DNA of 64,000 nt, from the NCBI GenBank assembly GCA_947073545.1, contig CAMTMP010000009.1:1-64000 (forward strand), written 5' to 3'. Both the position numbers and the translations under genes were made by a program. This DNA comes from an uncultured bacterium. GTDB lineage: Bacteria > Bacillota > Clostridia > Lachnospirales > Lachnospiraceae. A model generated the notes under the pieces. The model saw only the letters and a list, made by a program, of their open reading frames with translations, was not told the origin of the DNA and did not search any database. This document shows positions 988 through 16,630 of this stretch, piece after piece; the first letter of the stretch is position 1, and the number at the start of each line of letters is the position of its first letter.

Positions 988-1030
988 AAGATTTTATAAT
1001 AGAAAAGTGATTGGAAGAGGGTTGTGGAAG

Positions 1031-1066: not shown

Positions 1067-1184
1067 ATATGAACGTGTTTTGTTGGCATGTATTGTATAA
1101 AATTGCTTTCTAAATTGAAATATAATTCGGTTTAATCGCAGGAAAAGGGGAGGAAATATTTCTTGAAACAAAAGTTATTACAGC

Positions 1185-1609: not shown

Positions 1610-1741
1610 GAGGATAACGGCGGCCTTTTGGCCCGAATGTTGTAATAATAGGATATTTGGTCTATAATATTTTTATGATTTTATCAATACAGTATGCCAT
1701 TTTAAAGGATATACATTGTATGGCGGAAGGGGAAAGGCTGT

Positions 1742-2076
1742 ATGTGTGAGGAAAAGATAAGGGCGGTCGTGACACAGTTTGCAAAAGAAGCGGAGAAAAT
1801 ATATGGAGCAGTTTTGCGGGCTGTGATTTTGTATGGTTCCTTTGCACGGGGGATTTTGCAGACGATAGTGATATCGACATTATGGTTTTGCTGGATGTTG
1901 GGCAGGATGAGATCGGGATAGCAAGGAAGAAAATTTTAGATGTTTCAGATCAGATCGATTTGAAGTATGATGTAGTTTTAGCGCCGGTGATTCAGAGCTG
2001 GCGGTTATATAATCAGTATATGGCAGTGTCGTGCTTTTATCAGAATGTGCAGAAAGAAGGTATTAAGTTTGCTTGA
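1742..2076 (+). pseudogene. MntA-like nucleotidyltransferase, frameshifted in a G-run
   Basis: The frame from ATG 1742 begins MCEEKIRAVVTQFAKEAEK and reaches VILYGSFARG. A break follows, and the adjacent frame continues with DFADDSDIDIMVLLDVGQ and ends at 2076. Joined, this is a roughly 110-residue MNT-type minimal nucleotidyltransferase with the signature G-S-x-A-R-G then S-D-I-D-I. The break lies in a run of five G at about 1848-1852; six would restore the frame. MNT proteins usually act as antitoxins that AMPylate a HEPN toxin partner, and a HEPN-like remnant overlaps the stop codon here. It could be a true decayed gene, a phase-variable G-tract, or a base-calling error. Confidence 0.65.
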
Positions 2077-2173
2077 ATATAAAGAATTACAAAAAGATTA
2101 TGCAAAATAAAGACTTGATAAATTGAGGGAAGATTTGGATTATTTTACCAGAGTAGTTGATAATATGGTATGA
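2069..2173 (+). pseudogene. Possible HEPN toxin N-terminal remnant
   Basis: Starting from TTG 2069, overlapping the nucleotidyltransferase stop, the frame reads MLEYKELQKDYAK, a stop at 2108-2110, then RLDKLREDLDYFTRVVDNMV and a second stop. The 'Y-x-K-(Y)RLDKxxEDLD' pattern resembles the first helix of HEPN partners of MNT antitoxins. Only about 34 residues remain. The identification rests on a short pattern and on position next to an MNT gene, so it is tentative. Confidence 0.35.
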
Positions 2174-2187
2174 TGTTAATATATAAA
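2157..2187 (+). promoter_or_regulatory. Candidate promoter of the left defence operon
   Basis: TTGATA at 2157-2162 is followed by an AT-rich stretch with -10-like hexamers (ATATAA at 2181-2186, 18-bp spacing). It precedes the AGGAG ribosome site at 2192-2196 of the first defence gene. Such hexamers are common in AT-rich DNA, so this is a weak call. Confidence 0.3.
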
Positions 2188-2207
2188 AAATAGGAGCGAA
2201 AAATAAT

Positions 2208-3563
2208 ATGAATAATTTATTAGTAAATTCTTCTCCGTCAAAAGAGTTTTTCCTAAATATGATTACGAAAGACGTGACTGTTGAGAGTAGCATTTTAGAT
2301 TTGATTGATAATTCAATAGATGCTTATAAGAGAGAAAGAGAAAAAACAAAACAGGGAATTATTGAAATTTCATATAGTATTGCTGATGATTTTTTTTCAA
2401 TCAATGATAACTGCGGAGGGATGTCCAAGGAAATTGCGGTTAATAAAGCATTTAGATTTGGAAATGAAAGAAATCGTGATGCCGGTACGTTAGGAATGTA
2501 TGGAATCGGTATGAAAAGATCGATTTTTAAAATCGGTTCCAATTTTGTTGTAGAGAGTAAGACAGATACAGATTCCTACAAGGTATATATGAATCGTGAT
2601 GAATGGATGACTCTTAAGGATGAAAAAACCAATGATGACATTTGGAAATTTCATTTGGATGATGTTGACTTGAGTTTTGATAATGGAGTTCACATTAAAA
2701 TAGAAAAGCTTAGCGATTCATTAAAAACGTATTTAAAAATGCGAAATAATGTGGAGACGTTAAGAGAAAAAGTCAGGAATGCATATAGAGAACTGTTGGG
2801 AAATGGTGTTGTTATATCTATTAATGGTGAGAAAATACATTATTCAAGTGAGACATTATATATGGCAAGCTTTTTGAAGCCGTATGTAAACACTTATAAT
2901 ATTGGGAGAAACAATGAAATTGCAATTAAGATAATTGCGGGAGTAGGGGATCCATCGCCAAAAGATGCAGGGTGGGATATTATTTGTAACGGACGTGCTG
3001 TGATTCAAAAGGATCGGACAGAACTGACGGGGTGGGAATCATCATATGATTTGGAAGAAGAAAATGGTGTAGATGAAGCCTTTCAGGGGAAAATCATACC
3101 GGCTTTTCATAATGATTTTGCAAGATTTAGGGGATATGTGTATATTGATTGTGACGATCCGAATCAATTGCCACTTAATACAACTAAGGATAGTATAGAT
3201 CAGCAACATTTTGTATATCAATTTATATTTCAGGAAATGCGAAATGCAATGCGTTATATTTTGCCTAAATTGCGAAGATTACAAGAAACCATTAGAGATT
3301 GCAAAAAGGAATCAAAGATTCCTCCAAATGAGAAATTTCAAGAACAAAAGGTGACGGCTTACCTTGCTTCTGAAAAAACGGAATTTAAGCTTGAATTGAG
3401 TGAATATCATGCAACGGAAAAAGCAATAAGAATTCCTCTGTCACTGGATGAAAAAACAGTCAAAGAGTGGAAGATATATTTTCAGGCAGAAACAAATAAA
3501 GCTCTGGGTGAAGAAATTAAAAAGTTTGTACAAGAGAGGCTGATTACAGATGAACAGTTATGA
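2208..3563 (+). CDS. GHKL-type ATPase (HATPase_c superfamily), first gene of the left defence operon
   Basis: This is a 451-residue protein with a GHKL ATP-binding fold at its N-terminus. Visible motifs are the N-box 'LDLIDNSIDAY' near residues 28-38, the G1 box 'DNCGGM' near 64-69, and the G2-like 'GMYGIGMKRS' near 95-104. This arrangement resembles MORC/Hsp90/MutL-type ATPases more than sensor kinases, because there is no HisKA or sensor domain. A middle region carries 'CNGRAVIQKDRTELTGWES', similar to the transducer part of such ATPases. RBS AGGAG lies at 2192-2196. It overlaps the next gene by 14 bp, so the two products probably work together. GHKL ATPases of this type are seen in defence islands, probably as conformational clamps. 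The specific role here is unknown. Confidence 0.75.
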   Translation: MNNLLVNSSPSKEFFLNMITKDVTVESSILDLIDNSIDAYKREREKTKQGIIEISYSIADDFFSINDNCGGMSKEIAVNKAFRFGNERNRDAGTLGMYGIGMKRSIFKIGSNFVVESKTDTDSYKVYMNRDEWMTLKDEKTNDDIWKFHLDDVDLSFDNGVHIKIEKLSDSLKTYLKMRNNVETLREKVRNAYRELLGNGVVISINGEKIHYSSETLYMASFLKPYVNTYNIGRNNEIAIKIIAGVGDPSPKDAGWDIICNGRAVIQKDRTELTGWESSYDLEEENGVDEAFQGKIIPAFHNDFARFRGYVYIDCDDPNQLPLNTTKDSIDQQHFVYQFIFQEMRNAMRYILPKLRRLQETIRDCKKESKIPPNEKFQEQKVTAYLASEKTEFKLELSEYHATEKAIRIPLSLDEKTVKEWKIYFQAETNKALGEEIKKFVQERLITDEQL

Positions 3564-4509
3564 GAAAATAAATTATAAGTTACGACCACAGAAAAGAATT
3601 GAAAGAGCTTTAATTGCACAGTTAATTAATAATTTCCAGCATATTATTGGAGAGAAAATAAATTATATTGGAATGGGATCTCTCTTTTATGCTGATTTTG
3701 TATATTTTAATCGTTATTGTGATTTAAATGAAATGATCAGCATTGAAATGATGGAAGATGAGTTTGGGATTTATGATGAAAAGAAAGAAACGAGGTTTAG
3801 GAACAATAAGCCGCTTGAATCGATCCAGTTGATTCCGAAAGCGGTATCGAAGGCAATTGATGATTTACCATTTGAGCAATCAAATTTTGTTTGGCTTGAT
3901 TATGATGGTTCTTTTGAGCCCGCAATCATTAGTGATGTTGAAGAGATAGTTAAAAGGACGAAGAAATCATCAATTATTGCTGTTTCATATAATGATCGTA
4001 TTCCAAAACAATATAAATCGAATCAGGAGTTTTATATTGAAAAATGTAAGAAAGAATATAGTGAATTTGTTTTGGAAGGAGTAGATCATAACTTTACATC
4101 AAAGGGTTACGCAAGAATAGCATCTGGAATTTGTGAAAAGTATTTAGAAGACCAGATGGATTTTTATAACAACGTTAATGGAACTAATTTTGTACTGAAA
4201 AAATTGAGTAAAGTTGAGTATAAGGATGGCGAAAAAATGAATACGATTATTTGGGTGCTGCTGGATGAAGATCAGCCTTATGCACAGTCTTTTGAGCAAC
4301 AAATATCTGATTCGGAAATATATGGGGAATTGAATCTTAAAATGGAGATATTGACGTTGTTTGAAAAGCAGTTACTTGACAGAAAGCCGTCTGCAGATCG
4401 AAAAGACAGAAAAAGGACGGCTGAAGAGCTGGGATTAGAGATCGAGACAGTTGAGCAGTATTATAAATATGCAAAATATATTCCGGAGTATACGGAGATC
4501 ATTGTTTAA
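3550..4509 (+). CDS. Rossmann methyltransferase-like protein of defence islands
   Basis: This 319-residue protein has no named family I can assign with certainty. The N-terminal half reads like a class I Rossmann methyltransferase: 'INYIGMGSLFYADFVYF' could be the motif I loop, 'MISIEMMEDE' supplies an acidic strand end where SAM ribose would bind, and 'FVWLDYDG' resembles motif IV. No DPPY/NPPY motif is present, so a classical adenine methyltransferase is unlikely. The last 35 residues ('RTAEELGLEIETVEQYYKYA') look like a helix-turn-helix. It starts inside the preceding GHKL ATPase gene, so translation is probably coupled. It might modify nucleic acid or a small molecule, or be an inactive methyltransferase fold. 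NCBI lists phosphorothioation-associated putative methyltransferases, but I cannot confirm membership. Confidence 0.55.
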   Translation: MNSYEKINYKLRPQKRIERALIAQLINNFQHIIGEKINYIGMGSLFYADFVYFNRYCDLNEMISIEMMEDEFGIYDEKKETRFRNNKPLESIQLIPKAVSKAIDDLPFEQSNFVWLDYDGSFEPAIISDVEEIVKRTKKSSIIAVSYNDRIPKQYKSNQEFYIEKCKKEYSEFVLEGVDHNFTSKGYARIASGICEKYLEDQMDFYNNVNGTNFVLKKLSKVEYKDGEKMNTIIWVLLDEDQPYAQSFEQQISDSEIYGELNLKMEILTLFEKQLLDRKPSADRKDRKRTAEELGLEIETVEQYYKYAKYIPEYTEIIV

Positions 4510-4591
4510 AACATACATATGAGATGTATATTTATAGAATGATAGCTATTATTAAGTGTTTCCAGCAAGATGCGAAAGGCTAATTCTGAAG

Positions 4592-6652
4592 ATGACATTA
4601 AAAGATTTATCATTAAAAATTAGTTATAGGAGTAAAGGACCTGGTAATATACTTGATGAACTTTTAATTCCCGGGTTAAGATGCTCAAAAATATATAAAA
4701 GAAGTGTTGGCTATTTTTCTTCCGGTGTATTCGATCTTATCGGTGAGGGATTAACTGAGTTGGCTCAAAATGATGGTGAAATAAGGCTGATCTGTAATCC
4801 TGAGTTAAGCAATGAAGATATTGAAGGAATCAGGTTAGGGTATCATTTGAAGGAAATTATAATTCGAAATAAATTTGAGGAGGATTTGGAGAATTCCTTA
4901 AAAGCAATTGATGACAATAATTTGAAACTTCTTATTGAATTAATTGGACATGGGAAAATGAATGTATTAGTAGTTGATTTGGAGGATGAATTAGGCATAT
5001 ATCATGATAAAATTGGATTGCTGGTGGATTATGACAATAATAAGGTGCTTTTTGTAGGTTCTCCCAATGAGTCGATAGGGGGTTATAGAAATAACTATGA
5101 AAAAATTCGTGTGTCAATGAGCTGGAAAGTGGGAGATGATGAGCGAATTCAAGATGACGAAAAGGAGTTTGACGATATATGGGATGGATTAAATGAATAT
5201 GTTATGCGTATTGATTATACACAATTGGTTTTATCTCGGTTGGAAAAGGAAAGAGTGAATAGAGGCCGGGTGAGACAACCCGAAACAGGAGTTAAACTTC
5301 GCGAATATCAAAAGGCAGCGATTAGTGCATGGGAGAATAATGGTTATCATGGCTTTTATGTAATGGCCACTGGAACAGGGAAAACTTGGACGGCTATTTA
5401 TTCTGCATTAAAAATTATTGAACAAGAAGATATTCTGCTTGTAATCTGCGCTCCATATAAGCACCTTGTCAGACAATGGTATGAGGATGTACATAATGTT
5501 TTGCCTGACAGTAATATAATTATGGTTTCCAGTGAAAACAAAAGTTGGGAAGAAGAATTTCTAAATGCTGTCTATAATTCTAATTATAATAGCAGCGGAA
5601 CAATTATCGTGATATCTACGATCGTATCTTTTGGTTTGCAAAGATTTGAGCGAATCGTTAACAAATCGAAAATGAATAAAATGCTGATTGTTGATGAAGC
5701 TCATCGGTTTAAAAACAGAGAAAGTAAATTAAATGAATTGTATTCATATATGCTTGGTCTGAGTGCAACACCTTCCAATAAGAAAAGTGATGAATATGGT
5801 GAAGCATTAATGAATTTCTTCGGAGGACAAGTATATAATTTGCCGATAGAATATGCAATTGAGAAAAATTATTTAGTTCATTATAATTATCATCCAATTT
5901 TTGTATATGCAACCGAACAAGAGGAAAAAGATTTTGAGAGATATACACGCTTAATGGTTTCTTGTTTTAGAAATGGAAAGTGTTTTGATCTTGAAAGTCT
6001 TTCCAGACATAAGCGGTCACGGTTAAGAGTTATATCAATGGCAGAGGAAAAGATTTCAAACATGAAATGGATTTTAAGCCAGGTTCAGGAGTCAGACCAT
6101 TTTATTGTATACTGTGGGGATGGCAAACTATTTGATAGTAACTCTGGAGAGGAAATAAGACATATTCAATATGTCAAGGAAATATTGTATGAACTCGGAT
6201 ATAAATCCAGTCAGTTTACAGCGCAGGAAGATATGAAAACTAGAATGCAGTTGGTGGAAGCATTCAATAAGGGGCATATAGATTCGATGGTGGCAATTAG
6301 ATGTCTGGATGAGGGGATTAATATTCCGTCAATTAAAGGAGCTCTAATTTTGTCAAGTAACGATGATTATAGAGAATTTGTACAACGGCGAGGGAGAATT
6401 TTAAGAACATATACTGATGAAATGTCTGGGGAAGAGAAGCAGATCGCAAATATATATGATGTGATTGTTCTTCCGAGTGATCATTTGCATAATTTTGCTT
6501 TGATTGAATTGAGAAGATTTTTTGAGTATCTTAGTCTTGCAGAAAATAAGCAAGAGTATATGGAAACTTTAGAAGAACTATGTACCAGATATGGTGTTGA
6601 GCAAGAAGAGCTTATGGAATTGGATGAGAATGAGGAGGATCTGGATGAATAG
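4592..6652 (+). CDS. PLD-domain DEAD/DEAH helicase fusion, candidate phosphorothioation-system restriction enzyme
   Basis: This is a 686-residue superfamily 2 helicase with an N-terminal phospholipase-D-like nuclease domain. The PLD half shows 'YHDKIGL' (His138, Lys140) and 'GSPNES' (Asn159), an HxK...N half-site like those of PLD nucleases that dimerise. The helicase half shows Walker A 'TGTGKT' near 261-266, 'VDEAHRF' (DEAH at 368-371), 'LSATPS', and motif VI 'QRRGRILR'. This architecture fits the COG1061-type proteins linked by profile to dnd clusters as candidate restriction enzymes (TIGR04095, from memory). I chose ATG 4592 although the frame is open from GTG 4556; neither start has a strong ribosome site. 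It overlaps the next small gene by 8 bp. It is the best candidate effector of the left operon. Confidence 0.75.
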   Translation: MTLKDLSLKISYRSKGPGNILDELLIPGLRCSKIYKRSVGYFSSGVFDLIGEGLTELAQNDGEIRLICNPELSNEDIEGIRLGYHLKEIIIRNKFEEDLENSLKAIDDNNLKLLIELIGHGKMNVLVVDLEDELGIYHDKIGLLVDYDNNKVLFVGSPNESIGGYRNNYEKIRVSMSWKVGDDERIQDDEKEFDDIWDGLNEYVMRIDYTQLVLSRLEKERVNRGRVRQPETGVKLREYQKAAISAWENNGYHGFYVMATGTGKTWTAIYSALKIIEQEDILLVICAPYKHLVRQWYEDVHNVLPDSNIIMVSSENKSWEEEFLNAVYNSNYNSSGTIIVISTIVSFGLQRFERIVNKSKMNKMLIVDEAHRFKNRESKLNELYSYMLGLSATPSNKKSDEYGEALMNFFGGQVYNLPIEYAIEKNYLVHYNYHPIFVYATEQEEKDFERYTRLMVSCFRNGKCFDLESLSRHKRSRLRVISMAEEKISNMKWILSQVQESDHFIVYCGDGKLFDSNSGEEIRHIQYVKEILYELGYKSSQFTAQEDMKTRMQLVEAFNKGHIDSMVAIRCLDEGINIPSIKGALILSSNDDYREFVQRRGRILRTYTDEMSGEEKQIANIYDVIVLPSDHLHNFALIELRRFFEYLSLAENKQEYMETLEELCTRYGVEQEELMELDENEEDLDE

Positions 6653-6824
6653 ACTTACAGATGATGAAATGGTGAGTAAAATCATTGAGATAGAGAAGAA
6701 TGCGTCGAGGAAAAAGATGTTTGCTGAAGCAGGCGGGGGATTTAAAGTTTCTGCTATGAAAATAAATTCTGATGCAATTGACAGTATACTTAAGTTGCTT
6801 GAGGAGGAGTTGAATGAAAATTAA
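6645..6824 (+). CDS. Small protein (59 aa) coupled between helicase and SMC genes
   Basis: MNRLTDDEMVSKIIEIEKN begins at ATG 6645, with GAGGAGG just upstream inside the helicase gene and a start that overlaps the helicase stop by 8 bp. The stop overlaps the next gene by 11 bp. The protein is charged and predicted helical, with a Gly-rich hinge 'FAEAGGGFKV' in the middle and an acidic C-terminus. No family is recognised. The double overlap suggests tight stoichiometric coupling, as for a small subunit or adaptor between the helicase and the SMC ATPase. An open frame extends upstream to 6591, but the ribosome site favours 6645. Confidence 0.7.
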   Translation: MNRLTDDEMVSKIIEIEKNASRKKMFAEAGGGFKVSAMKINSDAIDSILKLLEEELNEN

Positions 6825-8796
6825 ATCAATTGAATATCAAAATTTTCGTAATTTTGAGAAACGTGGAAAGATTTATTTTGATACAGATGGGAAAATTACG
6901 ATTGTATATGGAACAAACGGAGATGGTAAAACGACACTTCATCAATTGTTTCAATGGATTCTTTATGGACGGGTCAATTTTAACAGAACAACAAGTGGAA
7001 ATAAACTTTATAATTTGGATGCTGGCGAGAGGTTAAGTATAGGATCTTTTTTTAAAACATATGGAAAAATTGAATTTGAACATAGTGGGGAAGAATATGA
7101 GGTTTGCAGAGAATGGTGTTATTATAAACAAAGTAATGGAAATATATCAAGAAAAACAGAAAATGATGATTTTTCGATATATAAGTGTGATGAGAATAAA
7201 GATTGGAGACGATTAGAGAATCCCGGTATCATTATTAATGAGGTTCTTCCGGGTGGCTTATCATCCTATTTCTTTTTTGATGGAGAGACAATGATAGCAG
7301 ATTTAAAAATGACAGGGAGTGAATCAGCTAAATCATTGAAATCGGCTCTTTTTACAATTTTAGAACTTGAGTTATACGAATATGCTTTAAGGGATTTGGG
7401 ATCAAAAACGCAATCTCAAACAGTTCTGGGAAATTTATTTAGTAAAAGTATAAAAGCACGTGAGAGAGCAACTACGGAAAAAGAGAGTCAAGACTTACTT
7501 AGAGAAATTAGAATATTGAATAGTAGGATAGATAAAATAAACGATGAACTTGTAGTAAAGAACGAAAAAATAAAACAAAATAGCGAACAAATAAAAAGCC
7601 TGTCGGAACGTATTGGTTTAAATAAATCTAATAAGGAATTAGATAATGAAAGAAAAAAATTGAATGAGAGAATTGCAAAAAAGAAATTAATGATTAAGGA
7701 TGAACAAATGCGATTTGGCAATGAAGCAGCGAATAATATGTCCTATTTATTAATTGCAAAAGTTGCAAATGAAGCTGATCAAAGATTGTGCTTGGAAGTA
7801 CAAGAAGAGGAAAAGAATGTAATTCCTGGGTTGACAAAGGAATTATTGAATAACTTGTTAAATGAGGAATATTGTATTTGCGGGAACCCATTGTGTGAAC
7901 ATGAGCATGCTGCGCTGGAAAAATGGAAAACATATTTCCCACCGACATCTTATAAGGCAACATATAATCGATTCAGCCACAGTATGACAAAGTATTCTGG
8001 TAGTTATACTGGCAATCGCTTATTGGAGTATTTTCAGAGAATTATTGGGTATAAAAACGAAATTCGAGATTTAAATACAGATATTCAAGAACTTGACAAA
8101 AAGCTGAAAAAGAATGAGGATGTAGATTTTTATATTGATAAACGCGCTCAACTTGAAAAAGAGAATGAGAAATTAATTGAGGAAATAGAGGATGATAAAA
8201 AGCAGCAAGGTGATTTGGAGCACAAATTATATATTAGGGAGAGAAGGGCTAAGACAAATAATAATGCGAGCAGCGAGGCATTGGAATACGAAGAAAAATA
8301 TGAATATATGCTTAAAATAAAAGAAGCAATTAAGGATAAATTAAAAAGAGAGACAGAAGACTATACGCATAGGCTTGAAAATGAAATTGAAAAATTAGTA
8401 GATGCCATGTTGACAAGCGAACGAAAAGTAACGCTTAATGATGATTTTCAGTTGAAAGTGTGTGATAGTCACGGTGACGAATCAAAATCGGAAGGGCAGT
8501 TTGCAGTGATTTCGTTTGCGTATATAGGTGGCGTTTTAAAAGTGCTCAGCAATTTTAAGCATTTTAAGGAGAAAGAATATCCTCTTATTTTGGACGGGCC
8601 GTTTTCTAAATTGGATTCTGAGCAGAAAGCCAATATTCTTAATACGATACCAGAATATGTTCCGCAGGTTATTATTTTTTCAAAAGATCCGTTATTTAAG
8701 GATATTAAAGAAGAAAAAATAGGAAAAGTTTGGACCATACAAAGTAATGCTGAGAAAAACAATGCAACGATAGAGGAGGGGTATCTATGGAAGTAA
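6814..8796 (+). CDS. DndD-like SMC/Rad50-type ATPase with zinc-hook-like motif
   Basis: This is a 660-residue SMC-family ATPase. Walker A 'GTNGDGKTT' lies near residue 33, 'YFFFDGE' (a hallmark also of DndD) near 151-157, a long coiled coil spans about 210-560, an ABC-signature-like 'SEGQFAVISFAY' lies near 555-566, and Walker B 'LILDGPFSKLD' near 590-600. At the coiled-coil apex 'CICGNPLC' (Cys354, Cys356, Cys361) resembles a Rad50-style zinc hook. The protein is clearly a paralogue of the DndD encoded at 12077-14023, which lacks such cysteines. It overlaps both neighbours (11 bp and 10 bp). A role in DNA scanning or in loading the helicase-nuclease is inferred from context only. Confidence 0.8.
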   Translation: MKIKSIEYQNFRNFEKRGKIYFDTDGKITIVYGTNGDGKTTLHQLFQWILYGRVNFNRTTSGNKLYNLDAGERLSIGSFFKTYGKIEFEHSGEEYEVCREWCYYKQSNGNISRKTENDDFSIYKCDENKDWRRLENPGIIINEVLPGGLSSYFFFDGETMIADLKMTGSESAKSLKSALFTILELELYEYALRDLGSKTQSQTVLGNLFSKSIKARERATTEKESQDLLREIRILNSRIDKINDELVVKNEKIKQNSEQIKSLSERIGLNKSNKELDNERKKLNERIAKKKLMIKDEQMRFGNEAANNMSYLLIAKVANEADQRLCLEVQEEEKNVIPGLTKELLNNLLNEEYCICGNPLCEHEHAALEKWKTYFPPTSYKATYNRFSHSMTKYSGSYTGNRLLEYFQRIIGYKNEIRDLNTDIQELDKKLKKNEDVDFYIDKRAQLEKENEKLIEEIEDDKKQQGDLEHKLYIRERRAKTNNNASSEALEYEEKYEYMLKIKEAIKDKLKRETEDYTHRLENEIEKLVDAMLTSERKVTLNDDFQLKVCDSHGDESKSEGQFAVISFAYIGGVLKVLSNFKHFKEKEYPLILDGPFSKLDSEQKANILNTIPEYVPQVIIFSKDPLFKDIKEEKIGKVWTIQSNAEKNNATIEEGYLWK

Positions 8797-9365
8797 AGTC
8801 CCATTTAGTATGTAAAGGGGAGGCGTGGTATCAAATTAATAGCAAATTGGTACATACTTTTTTTGACACCCTTTGGGATGCGTTCAAGTTGTGTATTTCG
8901 ATTGGAATACTTTATGATCATGCAAAAGAAGAATTGGGTGACAGCGAAGATCAGGCGACTGTTCCAAGTAATATGTTTAATAGAAATTCGGAAGTAATGT
9001 CATATTTTTTTAAGACAGCAATTCTGACATCTAATTTAGTGGATTTTACAGAGAAGGATAGACTTTATTTGGCATTCTCAGAGGATGTTAAAACAGAAGA
9101 TCTCGAAGGTGATGACCGGGAGCTATTAATTAAGGGTGTGTCGGAAAAAGCTCTTTCATTTGATAAAGTTGCTTTTTTAAGGACCTTTGCAAATTATGGA
9201 GCAGAGAAGCTTGCTTCATGTATATCGGTCAATGATAATGAGACAATGGAAAACTTAATGGATTTTCTAAATGATTCATATGATGGAGTGACAGAAGAAT
9301 TGATGAAGATGAAAGAACTTAATGAAAAGTTTGACGATGAATGGGGTGATGAAGTTATAGAGTAA
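8787..9365 (+). CDS. Defence-island protein of unknown function (192 aa)
   Basis: This 192-residue, mostly helical acidic protein starts MEVKSHLVCKGEAWYQINS and ends in a Glu/Asp-rich tail. I recognise no catalytic motif. The start overlaps the SMC ATPase stop by 10 bp, with a GAGGAGGGG ribosome site inside that gene. It is the last gene before the dndB promoter. The length and position recall the short Dnd-associated proteins catalogued near dnd loci, but I cannot assign it to one. It might be an accessory subunit of the left operon complex. Confidence 0.65.
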   Translation: MEVKSHLVCKGEAWYQINSKLVHTFFDTLWDAFKLCISIGILYDHAKEELGDSEDQATVPSNMFNRNSEVMSYFFKTAILTSNLVDFTEKDRLYLAFSEDVKTEDLEGDDRELLIKGVSEKALSFDKVAFLRTFANYGAEKLASCISVNDNETMENLMDFLNDSYDGVTEELMKMKELNEKFDDEWGDEVIE

Positions 9366-9396
9366 TAGTAATTAGACTAAAACAGGATTATTGTTA

Positions 9397-9443
9397 TTGA
9401 CAAAAAACATCTACTTAAGTATACTGCTTAAGTAGATGTTTTT
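9397..9443 (+). promoter_or_regulatory. dndB promoter embedded in a perfect 17-bp inverted repeat (operator or terminator)
   Basis: A near-consensus promoter is present: TTGACA at 9397-9402, a 17-bp spacer, and TATACT at 9420-9425. The spacer is itself the left arm aaaaacatctacttaag (9403-9419) of a perfect 17-bp inverted repeat whose right arm cttaagtagatgttttt lies at 9427-9443. The 7-nt centre contains the -10 box. A protein bound to the palindrome would cover the promoter, so autorepression is likely. DndB represses dnd promoters by binding an inverted repeat in other bacteria (established for Salmonella). The arm ending in T5 could also terminate the upstream operon. RBS GGAGG follows at 9446-9450. 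Confidence 0.75.
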
Positions 9444-9455
9444 GCGGAGGTAAAT

Positions 9456-10517
9456 ATGAATTTCAGTTACAGATTCCCAGTAGTAAAGGGAATTCAAGCA
9501 GGTAAAATATATTATATAGCTATGGTTCCCCTTAAGATGCTCGGTCGCCTTTTTGCAAGTGATGAGGAATATGTTTTGCCTGAATACAGGGCACAGAGAA
9601 GGTTAAATGAGGCGAGAATCCCTGAAATAAAAAAATATATTTTAGATAATATGGATACATACGTTTTTTCTGCACTGGCAGCTTCCATAGATGGAGAGTT
9701 TAATTTTCTCGAGAAAGACAATGATGGAACCGGAATCTTGGAAGTGGCGCTGGACGCTAAGTTTTTGATTAATGACGGGCAGCATAGAAAAGCGGCTATA
9801 ATGGCGGCACTTGAAGAGAATCCAGTGCTGGAAGATGAAACAATTTCGGTGGTGTTCTATGAAGATCAAGGACTAGCACGGAGTCAACAGATGTTTACTG
9901 ATTTAAATAAACATGCGCTTAAGACATCTAATTCACTTGCGGAACTGTACGATTCAAGAGATCTGCTTGCCGTTGCGACCAGAGAAGTAATTTCGGAAAT
10001 AGATTTTTTAAATACATATGTAGATAAAGAGAAAGATAATCTCGGGAAATATTCTGCGTCGCTATTTACTTTAAATATTTTTTATTCGGCCAATAAAAAA
10101 ATTTTACGGAGAAAAGAATGTGATGAGGATTTTAAAGAATTTCTCAAAATGTTCTGGGGGCTAGTAGTGAAGTATATGGTTCCATGGAATGATTTGATTT
10201 CGAAGGAATTAAGCAAAACGGAGCTGCGTGAACAATATATTGCCGCTCAGGGAGTTGTGATTAAGGCATTTGGAAGAGTGGGAGGGTACTTGTTTGAACA
10301 TGATGAGTGTGAGTTGGACCAGTATCTTCCCAAAATTATAAATGTAAATTGGAAACGAAATGCTGTCCAATGGAAACGACGTGTGATTGGTAATAATGGT
10401 CGTATGATTACAAATTCAAATGCAGTTCTGTTGGCTGGGAACGTTATTAAGAATTATATGGAGTTGCCGTTGACTGAGGATGAAAAAAATGCAGAAGATA
10501 AATTTATGAATAATTAA
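9456..10517 (+). CDS. dndB: DndB, DGQHR-domain regulator of DNA phosphorothioation
   Basis: This 353-residue protein has the diagnostic DGQHR motif at residues 107-111 (NDGQHRKAA) and a following 'FTDLNKHA' segment, both typical of the DndB/DGQHR ParB-like superfamily. DndB is not needed for sulfur insertion. In other species it represses the dnd operon and influences modification frequency. It is the first gene behind the palindromic promoter, which fits autoregulation. GGAGG at 9446-9450 sets the ATG at 9456. The gap to dndC is only about 12 bp. Confidence 0.9.
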   Translation: MNFSYRFPVVKGIQAGKIYYIAMVPLKMLGRLFASDEEYVLPEYRAQRRLNEARIPEIKKYILDNMDTYVFSALAASIDGEFNFLEKDNDGTGILEVALDAKFLINDGQHRKAAIMAALEENPVLEDETISVVFYEDQGLARSQQMFTDLNKHALKTSNSLAELYDSRDLLAVATREVISEIDFLNTYVDKEKDNLGKYSASLFTLNIFYSANKKILRRKECDEDFKEFLKMFWGLVVKYMVPWNDLISKELSKTELREQYIAAQGVVIKAFGRVGGYLFEHDECELDQYLPKIINVNWKRNAVQWKRRVIGNNGRMITNSNAVLLAGNVIKNYMELPLTEDEKNAEDKFMNN

Positions 10518-10529
10518 TTATAGAGATTG

Positions 10530-12080
10530 ATGATGAAAGAGAAGCGTGCTATGGAGAAAAAGAAAGAGGAAGCGACAATAACAAGAGATAAGATTGATGG
10601 ACTAATGGAGACCGTGCGTAATCTATATATGTCTGATGATATTCCATGGGTAATAGGATATTCAGGTGGAAAAGACAGCACAGCTGCTTTACAGCTGGTT
10701 TGGCTGGCGCTTAGCGGGATGAACAAAGCGGATTTGAGGAAGGATGTCCATGTAATTAATACGGATACGTTGGTCGAGTCTCCGATTATTGAAAAGTGGG
10801 TTGAAAAATCTTTAAAGATTATGGATGAAACCGCGAAAGAAAAGGGGTTGCCTTTTATTACACATAGACTTACGCCGGCGATGGATCAGACATTTTGGGT
10901 TAATCTCATAGGGAGAGGATATCCATTTCCAAGGAAAAAATTTCGGTGGTGTACCGATCGGCTAAAAATTCAGCCGGTCAATAATTTTATTAAATCGGCG
11001 ATTGCTGAGCATGGTGAAATTATAATGGTATTAGGCACGAGAAAAGCGGAAAGCCAAAGAAGAGCAAGAACAATGGCTTATTATGAAAAGAAAAGGGTGC
11101 GTGAATTGCTTAGTCCGAATCCGACATTAGCGAATGAACTTGTATTTTCACCTTTAGAGGAGTGGAATGATGATGACGTCTGGGTATTTTTAATGCAGTA
11201 TAAAAATCCATGGGGATATTCAAACCATGAATTACTTACGCTATATAAAGGTGCGAGAGCAGATAATGAATGTCCGATGATGGTAGAAAAAAATCTTCCC
11301 AGTTGCGGTAAAAGTCGATTTGGGTGCTGGGTTTGTACGATGGTGGAAAAGGATAAATCCATGGAGGCGATGATTGACAATGATAATGAAAAAGCATGGA
11401 TGGCTCCTTTATTAGACTTCCGTAATAAATTTGGTGATGAAGAGTTAGATCGTGACCGGCGAAGCTTTAAGAAAATGCAGGGCTTTTTGCAGGGATCTTA
11501 TGGGAGATTGCATCATGGACCGTATAAAAAGGAAATAAGAGAAGAGTGGTTAGAAGAGCTGCTGAGAATACAGATGGAAATTAATCAAAATGGACCTGCG
11601 GAATTTGCAGATTTGGAATTAATTTCTTTGCCGGAGTTAAGAAATATTCGGAGAATCTGGGTAAATGAGAAGCATGAATTTGATGATTCCCTGCCAAGAA
11701 TTTATGAGTTGGTAACGGGGGAAAAATTTGAAGATCCCGATTGGATTGGTCTGGAAATGTATGGAAAAGATGAATGGGATCTCTTAAAAGAAACTTGTAA
11801 TGATTTATTTAGAGATGAAAAGTTGTCATTTGAGATGATGTATAATTTGGTTGCCATTGAGAATGCAGCGAACAATGTCAATGATCGGAAAGGCATTCTA
11901 AATTCAATAGAAAATTGCATAAGGCATAATTTTTATACAGATGAGCAGGATGCTACTGCATATTATACAACTCAGTTAGACAGAAAGAAAAGGCTTGGCG
12001 GTAAATATGATGAGAGATTCTTTGCACATATTCGAGAGGAAGCCGAAGAATTTGATGGTGCGGAAGAGGAAGCAGAATGA
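10530..12080 (+). CDS. dndC: DndC, PP-loop ATPase of DNA phosphorothioation
   Basis: DndC is a PAPS-reductase-like PP-loop ATP pyrophosphatase thought to activate the DNA backbone for sulfur insertion. The protein (516 aa) has the PP-loop SGGKDS near residues 45-50, 'WCTDRLKIQP', and a four-cysteine cluster Cys248-x10-Cys259-x6-Cys266-x2-Cys269, as expected for its 4Fe-4S centre. The start is ambiguous: TTG 10527, ATG 10530 and ATG 10533 are adjacent, and the ribosome site is weak, which suggests translational coupling to dndB. The stop overlaps dndD by 4 bp. Confidence 0.92.
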   Translation: MMKEKRAMEKKKEEATITRDKIDGLMETVRNLYMSDDIPWVIGYSGGKDSTAALQLVWLALSGMNKADLRKDVHVINTDTLVESPIIEKWVEKSLKIMDETAKEKGLPFITHRLTPAMDQTFWVNLIGRGYPFPRKKFRWCTDRLKIQPVNNFIKSAIAEHGEIIMVLGTRKAESQRRARTMAYYEKKRVRELLSPNPTLANELVFSPLEEWNDDDVWVFLMQYKNPWGYSNHELLTLYKGARADNECPMMVEKNLPSCGKSRFGCWVCTMVEKDKSMEAMIDNDNEKAWMAPLLDFRNKFGDEELDRDRRSFKKMQGFLQGSYGRLHHGPYKKEIREEWLEELLRIQMEINQNGPAEFADLELISLPELRNIRRIWVNEKHEFDDSLPRIYELVTGEKFEDPDWIGLEMYGKDEWDLLKETCNDLFRDEKLSFEMMYNLVAIENAANNVNDRKGILNSIENCIRHNFYTDEQDATAYYTTQLDRKKRLGGKYDERFFAHIREEAEEFDGAEEEAE

Positions 12081-14023
12081 TTATTAAAGAATTGGTATTG
12101 CACAATTTTGGTATATATGCGTCTACAAATAAGTTGGAGTTTCATGGTGAAAAACCAGTTGTTTTGATTGGTGGTATGAATGGCAGAGGGAAAACGACCT
12201 TGTTGGAAGGAATTCTTTTGGCATTATATGGAAACAATTCGTTTGCATATCGAGAGAGCAGTCATCATTCCTATGGACAATATTTGAAATCTTTTGTGAA
12301 TAGGATAGACGGGACATTAAGAACGTATATTGAATTAGAATTTTTGATGAAAGACGAGGATGCTACATATCGAATTCGTAGGGAATGGGATGGTAACAAG
12401 AGAAGGCTGACAGAAAGTATATCAGTATTTAAAGATGGTAAACCGAATCAGTTTTTGACAGAGCATTGGCTTATGTTTATGGAAAGTCTTCTTCCAAGCG
12501 GTTTATCAGAATTTTTCTTTTTTGACGGTGAAAAAATAGCTAAACTGGCGGAGGAAAAGACAAGTAAGCAAATGCAGGAGTCAATTAAGGCGTTAATGGG
12601 AATCTCAGTGTTAGATTCGTTGGAAAATGATCTGTACAGAGTCATTAACAAGACAGCTAAAAGCAGATTGGATGATAATGAAATTGAAGAAATTGAAAAT
12701 TTGCGTCAAATAAAGGAGGAGGCAATAAAAAAGCTGGAGTTGGTTGATGTAAGAATTAATGATTTGTATTTAGAAAAAGAAATGTTGATTCAACGAATGG
12801 AAAAATTGCAGCAGGATTATCAAAAAAGAGGAGGCGATGTGGTGGCTCAGCAGCAGGAACTCTTTCAAAAAAGATCTTCTGTAGCAGCCAGGATGGCGAA
12901 TATTCAAGAGCAATTAGTGAATGACGCTGCTTCGGAATTACCACTTGTTCTTGTGAGGAAATTGTTAGAAAATATAAAAGAAAATGCTGAAATTGCACAG
13001 GACGAGAAGATGATGGAGACTGCATTAAAAAAAATGGATAGTCTGATTGCGGACTTTGATCAGAATGGTACCCATAGTCAGGATATTCAAAAATTTATGG
13101 ATTTTGTGAAAAGGAGGGCAAAGAAGAAGCAGGGAGCCCCTTCTTATAATCTTTCGGATACAGCAATTTTCAAGCTGCAAGTACTTTTGGAGGAGCAGTT
13201 ACTTGGCAATAAACTGTCTGTTCAAAACCGACAGGAAGGATTATTGAAATTGCAGAAAGAGGCAGAGCAATTGGATAGTTATCTGTCTGTTGAAATTGAT
13301 GAAAAAGCTGTGGCCAGAATATATAAGAGAATAAAAGAAGCAGAGCAAAAGTATTTAGCGTTAGAAGTGAATATTGAGTGTATGAATGAGGAGAGACGAA
13401 TCTGTAATAGAGATGCCATAGCTGCTACAGCGTTATATAGTAAGAAGGTAGAAGGATACTTAAAACGTGTTGAACTAAATGAGGATCGTGATCGAATTAT
13501 TAAATACTCGCATATGGCAGTTACTATTTTAAATGAATATAAAATTCGATTACAACATAGGAAAATTAAGTTAGTGGCAGAGACGATGACGAAATGCTAT
13601 AAAAAATTAGCTAATAAGAAAAATATGATTCAACGAATTGAAATGGATCCCGATTCATTAGATTTAAAATATATGAATCAATTGGGGGAAGAGGTTGCAA
13701 AATCGTCTTTATCTGCGGGAGAAAAGCAGTTGATGGTTGTTTCTCTTTTATGGGCATTGGCATTATGTTCAAAAAAGAAACTGCCTGTTATTATTGATAC
13801 GCCGTTATCTCGCTTGGATTCGGCACATAGGGAATCGTTGATTAATATATATTTTCCGAAGGCAAGTGAACAGACCATTATTTTGTCAACAGATTCGGAA
13901 ATTGATAGATCCTGTTATGAATCTATGAAAGACAATATAGGAGACGAGTATACACTGGAATATAATGATGAGACAAAAACCACGACTGTTAAAAAAGGAT
14001 ATTTTACGGAGGCATTAAAATGA
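12077..14023 (+). CDS. dndD: DndD, SMC-like ATPase of DNA phosphorothioation
   Basis: This 648-residue SMC-like ATPase has Walker A 'GMNGRGKTT' near residue 33, 'FFFFDGEKIA' near 150, a coiled coil across about 200-540, ABC signature 'SLSAGEKQL' and Walker B 'VIIDTPLSRLD'. These match DndD, whose ATPase activity is thought to support DNA structure change or nicking during sulfur incorporation. No zinc-hook cysteines are seen, unlike the paralogue at 6814-8796. The ATG overlaps the dndC stop (ATGA), and the stop overlaps dndE in the same way, so these genes are translated as a unit. Confidence 0.93.
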   Translation: MIIKELVLHNFGIYASTNKLEFHGEKPVVLIGGMNGRGKTTLLEGILLALYGNNSFAYRESSHHSYGQYLKSFVNRIDGTLRTYIELEFLMKDEDATYRIRREWDGNKRRLTESISVFKDGKPNQFLTEHWLMFMESLLPSGLSEFFFFDGEKIAKLAEEKTSKQMQESIKALMGISVLDSLENDLYRVINKTAKSRLDDNEIEEIENLRQIKEEAIKKLELVDVRINDLYLEKEMLIQRMEKLQQDYQKRGGDVVAQQQELFQKRSSVAARMANIQEQLVNDAASELPLVLVRKLLENIKENAEIAQDEKMMETALKKMDSLIADFDQNGTHSQDIQKFMDFVKRRAKKKQGAPSYNLSDTAIFKLQVLLEEQLLGNKLSVQNRQEGLLKLQKEAEQLDSYLSVEIDEKAVARIYKRIKEAEQKYLALEVNIECMNEERRICNRDAIAATALYSKKVEGYLKRVELNEDRDRIIKYSHMAVTILNEYKIRLQHRKIKLVAETMTKCYKKLANKKNMIQRIEMDPDSLDLKYMNQLGEEVAKSSLSAGEKQLMVVSLLWALALCSKKKLPVIIDTPLSRLDSAHRESLINIYFPKASEQTIILSTDSEIDRSCYESMKDNIGDEYTLEYNDETKTTTVKKGYFTEALK

Positions 14024-14400
14024 TCATAAAGCAGATCAAACTGTCGAGTCAGGCAAAAGATAAATTATCCCGGTTGAAGGGAAAAACAGGAATCAGAAAT
14101 TGGAATGTTTTGTGCAGATGGGCATTCTGTTATTCGTTGAATGAAAATAGCGTACCTGCGGATGTGCCAATCGAATCCGATAGTAATTTAGAAATGTCAT
14201 GGTATACTTTTGCAGGTGAGTATAGTGAGCTGTACGAGGCGCTGATGATTGAATGGTGTATGGAAATGGGAATAGAAGCAAGTGAGACTAATCTGGCAAA
14301 GTATTTTAAGCTAAACCTTGAGAGAGGAATTGCACATTTATCGGGAACGAATTTTATTAAAAATTTGGATGATTTATTGAATTTGGCGACGGGGATTTAA
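14020..14400 (+). CDS. dndE: DndE, DNA phosphorothioation nicked-DNA-binding protein
   Basis: This 126-residue basic and helical protein begins MIIKQIKLSSQAKDKLSRLK, the typical DndE N-terminus, with 'KTGIRNWNVLCRWAFCYSL' following. DndE binds nicked double-stranded DNA as a tetramer in E. coli and is required for modification. Its length agrees with the family (about 110-130 aa). The start overlaps the dndD stop by 4 bp. A 59-bp gap separates it from dndA. Confidence 0.92.
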   Translation: MIIKQIKLSSQAKDKLSRLKGKTGIRNWNVLCRWAFCYSLNENSVPADVPIESDSNLEMSWYTFAGEYSELYEALMIEWCMEMGIEASETNLAKYFKLNLERGIAHLSGTNFIKNLDDLLNLATGI

Positions 14401-14459
14401 GAAGCTGATTCAGAATAACATGTTTGAGAATGAAAATTTGATGAGTGTGGAGAAGAGTA

Positions 14460-15611
14460 ATGGGTATTTATTTAGATTATAACGCTTCGTCCCCTATTGA
14501 TCATAGGGTGTTGGATTTAATGATTGATGTATATAAAAATGTATATGGCAATTCCGATAGTAGAACGCACATATATGGGGAGAATGCCAGAAAAGTTGTT
14601 GAAAATGCAAGATTGCAAGTGGCACAGCTACTAAGAGTAAAAAGCGGAGAAATTTTTTTTACAAGCGGTGCTACGGAAAGCAATAATATTGCAATTCGAG
14701 GTTTACGAAAATATGCGGAAGAATCGGGGAAGAAGCACATTATTACTTCATCAATAGAACACAAGGCAGTATTAGAAACGGTTAGGAGTCTTAAAGGAGA
14801 GAGATTTGAAGTAGATTTCGTTGATCCGGAAGAAGATGGGCGAGTAGATTTGAATAAGGTTCTTGCCTTAATAAGAAATGATACGCTGCTTGTAAGTCTT
14901 ATGCATGCAAATAATGAAACTGGTGTCATTCAGCCAGTAAAGGAAATAGGAGATGTATTGGCAGAAAAAGATATTTTGTTTCATGTTGATGCTACACAGA
15001 GCTGTGGGAAATTAGTGCCAGAACTAAAAGAACTAAAATATAATATGCTTTCTATAAGTGCACATAAGTTAAATGGACCGCAGGGCGTTGGTGCATTAGT
15101 TCTTAGAAAAAGGCAGTATAAGTTGCCGCCAGTAAAAGCGATAACATTTGGGGGATTGCAAGAATGTGGAATTCGCCCGGGAACAGTGCCGGTTGCACTT
15201 GCTGCCGGGTTAGGGAAGGCGTGCGAATTAGCTGATGCAGAATATGACGAAAACTATGCACGGTATCTTGAGAAAAAGCAAGCTATTATAGAAGTGATTG
15301 AAAAATCTGGGATTTGTTATGTTTTTAATGGTGATCAAAAATACTGTATGCCAAACACTATTAATGTAAGTTTCCTGGGTGTTGAATCGGAAGCGTTGAT
15401 GCTTTCTGTTAAACAGTTTTGTGGTATTTCGAATGGCTCTGCATGTACATCGCATGATTATACTCCTAGTTATGTATTACGGGCTATGGGATTAGATACA
15501 GAAAGAATTTCGTCTGCTGTCAGGATTAGCTGGGGGGCAGATACGGATAAAATAGAACTCGTTAATCAAGTAAAGAAATTAATTGAGGTTGCGAGAGGAT
15601 TAAAGACTTAA
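14460..15611 (+). CDS. dndA: DndA, cysteine desulfurase supplying sulfur for phosphorothioation
   Basis: This 383-residue PLP-dependent class V aminotransferase is of the NifS/IscS type. It begins MGIYLDYNASSPID. Visible features are 'FTSGATESNN', 'HVDATQSCGK', the PLP-binding lysine in 'ISAHKLNGPQGVGAL', and the active-site cysteine in 'NGSACTSHDY'. The ATG at 14460 has GGAGAAG 5 bp upstream; the frame is open from GTG 14445. Sulfur from cysteine would be passed to DndC. Here dndA follows dndE in the same direction rather than being divergent from dndBCDE. A general IscS role is possible, but position argues for DndA. Confidence 0.88.
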   Translation: MGIYLDYNASSPIDHRVLDLMIDVYKNVYGNSDSRTHIYGENARKVVENARLQVAQLLRVKSGEIFFTSGATESNNIAIRGLRKYAEESGKKHIITSSIEHKAVLETVRSLKGERFEVDFVDPEEDGRVDLNKVLALIRNDTLLVSLMHANNETGVIQPVKEIGDVLAEKDILFHVDATQSCGKLVPELKELKYNMLSISAHKLNGPQGVGALVLRKRQYKLPPVKAITFGGLQECGIRPGTVPVALAAGLGKACELADAEYDENYARYLEKKQAIIEVIEKSGICYVFNGDQKYCMPNTINVSFLGVESEALMLSVKQFCGISNGSACTSHDYTPSYVLRAMGLDTERISSAVRISWGADTDKIELVNQVKKLIEVARGLKT

Positions 15612-15752
15612 TATACGAAATCGGGATTTAGATAGTATCGAATATAATCAGAGCATTGGTAATCAAGGCGTGTAACTTGTTTAGATTGTAATAGTCCAGA
15701 TTGAAAGCGGAATTAATTGTCATCAAGAGGTGAGCAGAGGGAGGAAATATAA

Positions 15753-16562
15753 ATGACAATAGTAGAGTCACTAAAGGCTGTATTGAGTGAATACCCTGGC
15801 GGAATGACAAATAAGGAAGCGTATGAAGCAATAATAAAAAAAGGGTTATATGAATTTTCTGCTAAACAACCTGAACATATTGTTAATGGCATACTTAGAA
15901 GACACTGTTTCGGGTTAGATTTCCCGACGGCAAACCCGGTTAAATATTTTAAAATAGTGGGACATAAAGGAAAGAAACCATTATATTCGCTAGTAGATAT
16001 AACTGAAATAGAACCAGAAATTTTGAAGAATAGTTTTAGAGATACGGAAACACTTCCAGAGGAAAAAATACAAAAATTTTATGATGTACATTTGGAAAAT
16101 ATATATGCCCAGATCATAGATATTATTACAGGTAAATTGCCTGAGTTTTTTGAACGTCTTATTGTGGATTTGTTATTAAAAATGGGTTACGGATATGACC
16201 GTAATTCCGGAATTGTTGTGGGAGGAAGTCACGATGGCGGGGTTGATGGAATAATAAATGAGGATAAGTTGGGCTTAAGCTTAATATACCTACAAGCGAA
16301 AAGATATACATCTGGAAATAATGTTGGTAGACCCGAGATACAATCTTTCGTGGGTGCAATGCAAAATATTCAAAAAGGTGTTTTTATTACAACGTCAGGT
16401 TTTACACGTGAAGCAATGGAATATGTAGAACGCCAGCAACAAAAAAGTTTGCGATTGATTGACGGAGAAATGTTGGCTCGTTTAATGGTTAAATATGAAG
16501 TGGGAATAGTAAGTCAGCAAAGCTTAAAGATTTATAAAGTAGATAATTCTTATTTCGAATAA
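15753..16562 (+). CDS. Mrr-like PD-(D/E)XK restriction endonuclease
   Basis: This is a 269-residue protein with two parts. Residues 1-75 resemble a winged-helix domain (HARE-HTH/Mrr N-terminal like): 'YPGGMTNKEAYEAIIKKGLY'. Residues 140-250 form an Mrr_cat nuclease: 'FERLIVDLLLKMGYG', 'DGGVDGII' (Asp165) and 'LQAKRY' (Q181-A182-K183, the Q-x-K variant of the catalytic motif), then 'GVFITTSGFTREA'. Mrr-type enzymes usually cut modified DNA. GGGAGG lies just upstream of ATG 15753, 141 bp after dndA. It is AT-rich like the rest of the island and is the last gene before hisS. It may cleave non-phosphorothioated invaders, or be an independent type IV enzyme. Confidence 0.8.
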   Translation: MTIVESLKAVLSEYPGGMTNKEAYEAIIKKGLYEFSAKQPEHIVNGILRRHCFGLDFPTANPVKYFKIVGHKGKKPLYSLVDITEIEPEILKNSFRDTETLPEEKIQKFYDVHLENIYAQIIDIITGKLPEFFERLIVDLLLKMGYGYDRNSGIVVGGSHDGGVDGIINEDKLGLSLIYLQAKRYTSGNNVGRPEIQSFVGAMQNIQKGVFITTSGFTREAMEYVERQQQKSLRLIDGEMLARLMVKYEVGIVSQQSLKIYKVDNSYFE

Positions 16563-16630
16563 TGGAGGATATTCTGTGGTATGCTCAAAGAGCTGATATT
16601 TGTGATTTAGACTTATCAGTTTCCAGCATC

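Follow-up and report, generated by a model that had tools for sequence, protein, structure and literature searches.

The window analyzed here is a stretch of 64,000 bp (bases 1 to 64000 of contig C9, accession CAMTMP010000009.1) of the 4.37-Mb assembly GCA_947073545.1 from an uncultured Lachnospiraceae bacterium. At positions 2208 to 16562, it carries a gene island in which the DNA phosphorothioation genes dndBCDEA, a PbeABCD system, and a two-gene pair encoding a GHKL ATPase and a Methyltransf_35 (PF20553) protein, called MT35 for short, stand together. The occurrence of PbeABCD beside dnd genes is already known, and the interesting part of the island is the portable GHKL-MT35 pair, which is a separate unit, independent of Pbe, and which has a DNA-modification gene nearby in all of the MT35-led loci found. 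The explanation proposed, with a probability of about 0.58, is a composite, modification-based anti-phage island in which a portable, restriction-side GHKL-MT35 pair would form a second arm beside Dnd-Pbe.

All of the island genes, from the GHKL gene through an Mrr-like gene, lie on the + strand, at the same coordinates as in a preliminary description of this DNA, and their order is GHKL, MT35, PLD-helicase, 59-amino-acid (aa) protein, CxC-ABC ATPase, 192-aa protein, dndB-C-D-E-A, and the Mrr-like gene. The genes of the pair, of PbeABCD, and of Dnd are as follows.

2208 to 3563, + strand: GHKL (MORC/paraMORC-like) ATPase, 451 aa (HATPase_c_3, 8.3e-14)
3550 to 4509, + strand: MT35, putative class I S-adenosylmethionine (SAM)-methyltransferase-fold protein, 319 aa (PF20553, 3e-55, 188 bits against a cutoff of 27)
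4592 to 6652 (alternative GTG start at 4556), + strand: PbeA, phospholipase D (PLD; HxK) domain and superfamily 2 (SF2) helicase (PADLOC PbeA, 1e-185)
6645 to 6824, + strand: PbeB-like small protein, 59 aa, between pbeA and pbeC
6814 to 8796, + strand: PbeC, 660-aa CxC-type ABC ATPase (PADLOC PbeC, 4.4e-82)
8787 to 9365, + strand: PbeD, 192 aa (named from its position after pbeC and its identity to sister proteins)
9456 to 10517, + strand: DndB (PF14072, 2e-111; TIGR03233 over cutoff)
10527 to 12080, + strand: DndC (TIGR03183, 605.7 bits, over cutoff)
12077 to 14023, + strand: DndD (TIGR03185, 458.9 bits, over cutoff)
14020 to 14400, + strand: DndE (TIGR03184, 115.3 bits, over cutoff; PF08870, 3.5e-39)
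14460 to 15611 (ORF opens with GTG at 14445), + strand: DndA cysteine desulfurase (TIGR03235, 435.1 bits, below the cutoff of 480; Aminotran_5, 1e-68)

PbeABCD and the separate GHKL-MT35 pair

The preliminary description had read the six genes before dndB as one overlapping operon and as a possible distinct restriction module with an unfamiliar gene combination. All six genes are present, but they form two overlapping blocks. The GHKL and MT35 genes overlap by 14 bp, and the PbeA, B, C, and D genes overlap by 8, 11, and 10 bp (taking the 59-aa start for PbeB). The gap between the blocks is 46 bp from the GTG start at 4556 or 82 bp from the ATG start at 4592, and the latter start fits the beginning of the PbeA profile better. 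The reading as a single six-gene module did not hold, since genes 3 to 6 match PbeABCD, a named and experimentally tested system, and genes 1 and 2 are an independent pair; four of the six genes thus belong to a system already named, and the GHKL-MT35 pair is not among them. None of the other loci examined had the full set of six, in keeping with its described unfamiliarity.

The four genes carry the features of Pbe proteins. PbeA matches ResIII (PF04851, 4.6e-22) and Helicase_C (PF00271, 5.3e-11), both over cutoff, and PLDc_2 (PF13091, 1.3e-5) with 25.5 bits, just under the cutoff of 27; it has the motifs HDK (at residue 150), GTGKT, and DEAH. Against the NCBI model dnd_restrict_1 (TIGR04095), it scores 360 bits, below the cutoff of 600, which is reached by none of the 397 genomes of the family sample (best score, 530), so the cutoff fails for the whole sample. 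The C terminus of the 59-aa protein is similar, by eye, to those of 53- to 75-aa ORFs likewise placed in loci L132, L133, L134, L138, and L125. The zinc-hook-like cysteines described before in the SMC-like gene were recovered in PbeC as C354-I-C356; a CxC motif is present at residues 346 to 354 in all six PbeC proteins examined and is absent from the window's DndD. PbeD had no match in profile scans and is 24 to 35% identical to 169- to 177-aa proteins likewise placed in four sister pbe loci.

Xiong et al. 2019 (PMC6459918) describe PbeA with PLD, Res, and helicase domains, a 66-aa PbeB, a PbeC that has an AAA domain, and a 152-aa PbeD, and report for relatives that PbeABCD acts with DndCDEA, that virus exclusion depends on phosphorothioate (PT), and that virus replication is stopped without visible cleavage. 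Rakesh et al. 2024 (PMC10853773), on the CxC ABC ATPase-DndE system, argue for cleavage by the PLD domain and claim PbeD as a DndE relative; a comparison of the PbeD and DndE profiles gave a probability of 0.1% from small alignments of only five and four sequences. Both systems share with the window the order pbeA-B-C-D adjoining a dnd modification operon, and the sequence of a PLD and SF2 helicase protein, a small protein, a CxC ATPase, and a small fourth protein. They differ from the window in that here pbe precedes dnd, dndB is present, and the extra GHKL-MT35 pair stands upstream and a HARE-Mrr gene downstream. With these four genes, the known Dnd-PbeABCD group gains one more bacterium.

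The Dnd part agrees with the preliminary description, which had reported a full dndB-C-D-E-A set, no DndF, DndG, or DndH, and an alternative in their place. DndB, C, D, and E score over the NCBIfam cutoffs and DndA, at 435 bits, below its cutoff of 480. DndF, DndG, and DndH models are not among the PADLOC matches listed for eleven island proteins (all but DndA), the matches listed for PbeC and DndD being the best 25 of 49 and the best 25 of 56. DndH has zero matches in the whole assembly, in which DndF and DndG were not searched. The alternative to DndFGH is pbeABCD beside dndBCDEA. The island probably marks its own DNA with sulfur.

Other pbe loci of the family separate the pair from Pbe. The PbeA threshold of 300 bits was chosen by the authors in the gap between 329 and 178 bits, and PbeA reached at least 300 bits in 15 of the 397 family genomes, including the window's own; up to 20 kb was fetched around each of the 14 other pbeA loci. 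The order PbeA, small ORF, PbeC, PbeD, DndB, C, D, E, and A recurs as in the window in G399 and G474, and as far as DndE in the 15 kb fetched from G737. In G399 and G474, the place of the window's GHKL-MT35 pair is occupied by a protein of 877 or 878 aa, which is 32 to 35% identical to a 928-aa protein of G683 with RNA-polymerase alpha C-terminal and sigma-region-4 domains. In G608, a set resembling SspA, SspB, SspC, and BrxP adjoins the pbe genes (PADLOC on this locus), and the gene sizes in G693, G430, G507, G676, G473, and G669 resemble those of G608 in a comparison of sizes only. G696 has PbeC with a type II methyltransferase nearby, and the contig of G547 stops inside pbeA.

L133, 5756 to 8389; L134, 5967 to 8603; L132, 11043 to 13829: 877- to 928-aa proteins directly before pbeA
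L125, 1495 to 16259: PbeA and PbeC adjoining a set like SspA/SspB/SspC/BrxP (same-family genome)

PbeA and PbeC thus also adjoin a set like those of the SspABCD and BREX type 4 phosphorothioation systems; the window carries DndBCDEA instead. The 14 other pbe stretches (that of G547 ending inside pbeA) gave no match to GHKL or MT35, including those of G399 and G474, which repeat the pbeABCD-dndBCDEA order. Because of these 14 negative stretches, and because PF20553 scores over cutoff in only three family genomes, GHKL-MT35 is not a regular part of Pbe.

These results bear on the possibility that the six genes are one machine, with GHKL and MT35 functioning as parts of a Pbe-type complex that serves this Dnd system specifically. 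The shared strand and the lack of any other gene between MT35 and pbeA fit such a machine. However, the 14 other pbeA genomes of the family sample all lack MT35, the ten other MT35-led loci show no pbe, the overlap of neighboring genes is interrupted between MT35 and pbeA, and a different gene stands at that place in two same-family genomes, all of which make a single machine very unlikely.

Association of the pair with DNA-modification genes

Methyltransf_35 is rare, scoring over cutoff in 4 of 398 genomes of a phylum sample, 3 of 397 of the family sample, and 3 of 381 of a class sample; the samples overlap, and all three contain the window's genome. The three family genomes are the window's own, G666, and G778. 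G772 was left out of the counts (Methyltransf_35 at 24.4 bits, below cutoff, and no GHKL match in the 13.6 kb read), as was L013, a duplicate of G235. A tblastn search with the window's MT35 added two plasmids and one phage, which gave eleven MT35-led loci: the window, G235, G173, G380, G666, G778, G931, G970, Pseudomonas phage PfAC20, Microvirga terrae plasmid pR24_2, and Sinorhizobium meliloti psymA.

All eleven loci have a GHKL gene together with MT35. The two genes are immediate neighbors in ten of them, including G380, where stops interrupt MT35, and are separated by an IS66-type insertion in psymA. A DNA-modification gene is near the pair in every one of the eleven. In six (G235, G173, G380, G931, PfAC20, and psymA), it is a C5 DNA methyltransferase (C5-DNMT), about 3 kb away in psymA. 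In three (G666, G778, and G970), a PP-loop (PAPS-reductase-domain) protein lies immediately upstream of the pair. The remaining two are the Microvirga locus, with DISARM and an MmeI-type gene, and the window, with Dnd. The DISARM system of pR24_2 resembles the window in carrying a GHKL-MT35 pair and differs in that the host system is DISARM, not Dnd-Pbe. No dnd or pbe matches were found in the stretches read of the ten other loci.

L010, 280 to 3711: GHKL, MT35, and cytosine methyltransferase genes at one end of the filamentous Pseudomonas phage PfAC20
L011, 6582 to 8996: GHKL-MT35 flanked by the MmeI-type gene and drmA, in the DISARM system of Microvirga terrae plasmid pR24_2

Viral contigs, drawn by the GHKL protein with an alignment of eight GHKL sequences, gave 75 loci in 35 clusters at 70% identity; cluster counts are from one representative each. 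MT35 is the next gene after GHKL in 30 of the 35 clusters (70 of 75 loci), and a C5-DNMT lies within three ORFs of GHKL in 34 clusters (74 loci); in the exception, L032, GHKL is at the edge of the available stretch. As an internal control, the 1625 ORFs contain 74 DNMT matches of more than 150 bits, every one of them no more than three ORFs from a GHKL gene. The sample is biased, consisting of relatives of eight query proteins of which four are DNMT linked, and the window's GHKL alone as a query found no relative in viral contigs. A Vsr-like gene is present in 6 of the 35 clusters. The five clusters that lack MT35 (L085, L088, L089, L090, and L091) have longer GHKL proteins of 573 to 586 aa beside the C5-DNMT, which suggests that the longer proteins may carry an extra domain in place of the MT35 partner; no family matched the extra part in those scanned.

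A further recurrent gene was not found in the unit when ORFs of at least 80 aa within 3 kb of the pair were clustered by BLAST for 36 loci, the largest other family occurring in 3 of them. By the same BLAST families, no nuclease family recurs beside the pair, apart from Vsr in a minority. The association of GHKL, DNMT, and Vsr is in line with the paraMORC neighborhoods shown in Iyer et al. 2008 (PMC2292703), where an N-terminal GHKL module is likewise linked with DNA methylases and Vsr, and with PMC8011034, which links HATPase_c_3 genes to methylases. Word searches of an open-license library turned up no paper on GHKL combined with Methyltransf_35; one of the uncharacterized domains in a figure of PMC2292703 might be MT35, and MT35 might also be the MTaX1 domain that PMC10853773 mentions.

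The PP-loop loci may connect the pair to sulfur. Members of this PP-loop family were found in 8 of the 397 family genomes (E values up to 1e-40), and seven neighborhoods were read (G714 excluded), of which two have GHKL-MT35 (G666 and G778), one has Pbe, one has DndFGH, and three have none of these. A 333-aa PP-loop protein and a cysteine desulfurase stand with PbeABCD in G683, where the 19.9 kb read gave no match to DndB, C, D, or E, and a PP-loop protein and a desulfurase stand with DndF, DndG, and DndH in G586. The PP-loop proteins of G683 and G586 are 77% identical, and those of G683, G586, G666, G778, and G970 are 62 to 85% identical in pairwise comparisons.

L132, 4184 to 6320: PP-loop protein and cysteine desulfurase beside PbeABCD (G683)
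L186, 7927 to 18602: PP-loop protein and desulfurase beside DndF, DndG, and DndH, without DndB, C, D, or E matches

The PP-loop protein has a low-scoring but significant match to SspD/BrxP, and, judged from its neighbors, it probably marks DNA with sulfur; its gene with that of the desulfurase in L132 is possibly a minimal sulfur-modification unit. In a tree of 39 GHKL-MT35 pairs, the three PP-loop-linked pairs form one clade with 100% support, and L017 and L175, which come from different families, are close to each other and have PP-loop proteins that are 85% identical, which suggests transfer. A distant PP-loop gene, about 50% identical, is also present in the window's own genome (L187, 8689 to 9732, contig C32), and a weak C5-DNMT match lies on the same contig at a distance of some 6 kb.

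The sequences of the two proteins were compared across these relatives. A profile of 32 GHKL relatives matched solved structures of MORC3, topoisomerase VI-B, and MORC4, all of them only weakly, with E values of 0.04 to 0.09. D31, N35, D67, G99, G101, K103, and K327 are invariant in all 32 GHKL proteins and presumably are ATP-site positions; the catalytic position of GHKL proteins is usually E rather than D. The combination of GHKL motifs with a C-terminal S5 lysine, which marks MORC and paraMORC proteins, is found here in the motif residues and the invariant K327, the S5 assignment being made from sequence. PADLOC 2023 gave at most a weak match (MzaB) for the GHKL proteins and none for the window's MT35. 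The match to MzaB of the MZA system reflects a shared GHKL domain, but at 22.4 bits it is far below the cutoff of 850, and the MZA partners were not seen at the window. A further lead, the likeness of the PfAC20 GHKL to part of the BbrUII/HgiDII restriction enzymes (29.6 bits, far below the NCBIfam cutoff of 550), was absent in nine other GHKL proteins and the window's.

In an AlphaFold2 model of MT35 (30 sequences; pLDDT, 88.6; pTM, 0.88), strands and helices follow one another as in a Rossmann methyltransferase and end in a strand hairpin, and from this order alone the authors assigned the putative fold; no match to solved structures was found by sequence. Conserved positions, which resemble those of a SAM site, are G41 (25 of 30), G43 (29 of 30), E or D at position 66 (30 of 30), W115 (30 of 30), and D117 (29 of 30). 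The protein was rejected as an ordinary C5 DNA methyltransferase, PF20553 being its sole Pfam match at an E-value threshold of 0.01.

With its modeled fold order and its conserved G43, E/D66, and WLDY motif, MT35 could instead be an accessory on the modification side, adding or tuning a second mark while GHKL loads it on DNA, so that the pair protects self; the modifier adjoining the pair in all eleven MT35-led loci would suit such a role. Most of the loci, however, already have a full DNA methyltransferase, a second modifier without a restriction partner has no evident use, and no other gene recurs in the unit. Known and proposed GHKL functions also point away from modification: VcSduA, in which a GHKL ATPase is fused to a Shedu nuclease, blocks phage and no longer does so when its ATPase or its nuclease is mutated (PMC12137116), and a role as engines on the restriction side, looping DNA in restriction-modification systems, has been proposed for MORC-like proteins (PMC2292703). 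An accessory of modification is therefore judged unlikely.

Proposed role of the pair

A restriction-side role for GHKL-MT35 is proposed mainly because the swapping of partners places the pair where PbeABCD or DndFGH otherwise stands beside closely related PP-loop proteins, and because the pair is the only recurrent partner of the modifier, C5-DNMT or PP-loop protein, in most loci elsewhere. In the proposed explanation, DndBCDEA would put PT marks on host DNA, and PbeABCD would use the marks to tell self from non-self and stop unmarked invading DNA. The portable two-gene module would have joined the operon upstream and would sense unmarked DNA, reading PT at this locus. A GHKL dimer may close on DNA as an ATP-dependent clamp when the mark is missing, and MT35 would be the effector or the regulator of GHKL, so that the island would have a second arm. 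In this way, GHKL-MT35 may restrict DNA, as suggested by its neighbors. VcSduA provides a parallel in that a GHKL ATPase is needed for phage restriction; its effector is a fused PD-(D/E)xK nuclease, whereas the window's partner is a separate methyltransferase-fold protein in which no nuclease was matched (PMC12137116).

Several observations weigh against this explanation. The combination of GHKL-MT35 with complete Dnd and Pbe was seen only once, in the window itself. Neither GHKL nor MT35 has a Pfam match to a nuclease domain, and a different nuclease in each locus is possible because neighbors were compared by BLAST clustering only. The window's pair forms the longest branch of the tree, with 1.72 substitutions per site, and may thus have changed its role; it keeps all of the conserved residues despite this length and so appears to be under selection. 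The link to sulfur is also loosened by the PP-loop proteins themselves. Their match to the DndC profile is weak (13% probability), those of G000 (the window's genome), G436, and G437, which have none of the partners, are 34 to 53% identical to the others, and all 27 loci of viral PP-loop relatives (530 ORFs) lack GHKL, MT35, Pbe, and Dnd matches, which indicates that the wider PP-loop family has other uses. Lastly, the three C5-DNMT matches of the assembly lie on contigs C1, C5, and C32, none adjoining the window's pair, which has Dnd instead, and the pair might serve the two strong genes on C1 and C5.

This last point leads to the view that the pair is a hitchhiker in a defense island, working alone or with an unlinked C5-DNMT and unrelated to Dnd or Pbe, which is rather unlikely. 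The C5-DNMT genes on C1 and C5 would supply its partner, and the different content found at the island site in a same-genus genome would fit a variable defense spot. Set against this, the pair reads in the same direction immediately before pbeA, and the same kind of pair adjoins PP-loop modifiers, probably sulfur based, in three genomes.

The occurrence of GHKL-MT35 with cytosine methyltransferases, a probable sulfur-modification enzyme, and DISARM suggests that the pair is a restriction or sensing module that is modification agnostic and has no recognized nuclease. A more specific form of the proposed explanation is offered tentatively, at less than even odds. In this form, the pair would be a nuclease-free portable module, indifferent to the chemistry of the mark, that reads the absence of a mark, which would be 5-methylcytosine in most loci, a sulfur mark beside PP-loop proteins, and Dnd phosphorothioate in the window, so that a MORC-like clamp with a methyltransferase-fold effector would be the mechanistically distinct second arm of the island. 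MORC-type ATPases help silence genes in plants and animals, and the pair, if this is true, would give a bacterial handle on how such ATPases act on DNA by its modification. The closely related PP-loop proteins with three different partner modules make a clear swap test possible.

The Mrr-like gene and the genomic setting

Two further features of the island were annotated.

9397 to 9425, + strand: promoter-like site TTGACA-17-TATACT before dndB, 11 of 12 consensus positions (weak; 65 in the whole scan against 62.3 in shuffles)
15753 to 16562, + strand: HARE-HTH-like and Mrr_cat restriction-endonuclease-fold protein, 269 aa (Mrr_cat, 5.9e-32; PADLOC mREase_IV, 5.6e-52)

An Mrr-like nuclease gene thus closes the island, as first described. 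It has a D-x(n)-QAK motif and a HARE-HTH match of 25.6 bits, just below the cutoff of 25.9, and HARE-REase genes beside dnd are noted in PMC10853773. Its assignment as DndI was rejected, since DndI has DUF262 and HNH domains (PMC11662687) and the window gene has HARE-HTH-like and Mrr_cat domains.

The island region (988 to 16628) occupies a variable spot between AIM24 and hisS, based on one comparison. In the same-genus genome G763 (L173), the AIM24 and hisS flanks enclose 10.9 kb of different content, and blastn similarity ends at window positions 987 and 16629, save for one 82-bp piece with 73% identity. The contig of a second same-genus genome, G457, ends at the site, and AIM24 was not found there. 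Upstream of the GHKL gene, at positions 1185 to 1609, pieces of a DUF234/Mrr_cat protein lie in two frames and are apparently the remnant of a broken gene.

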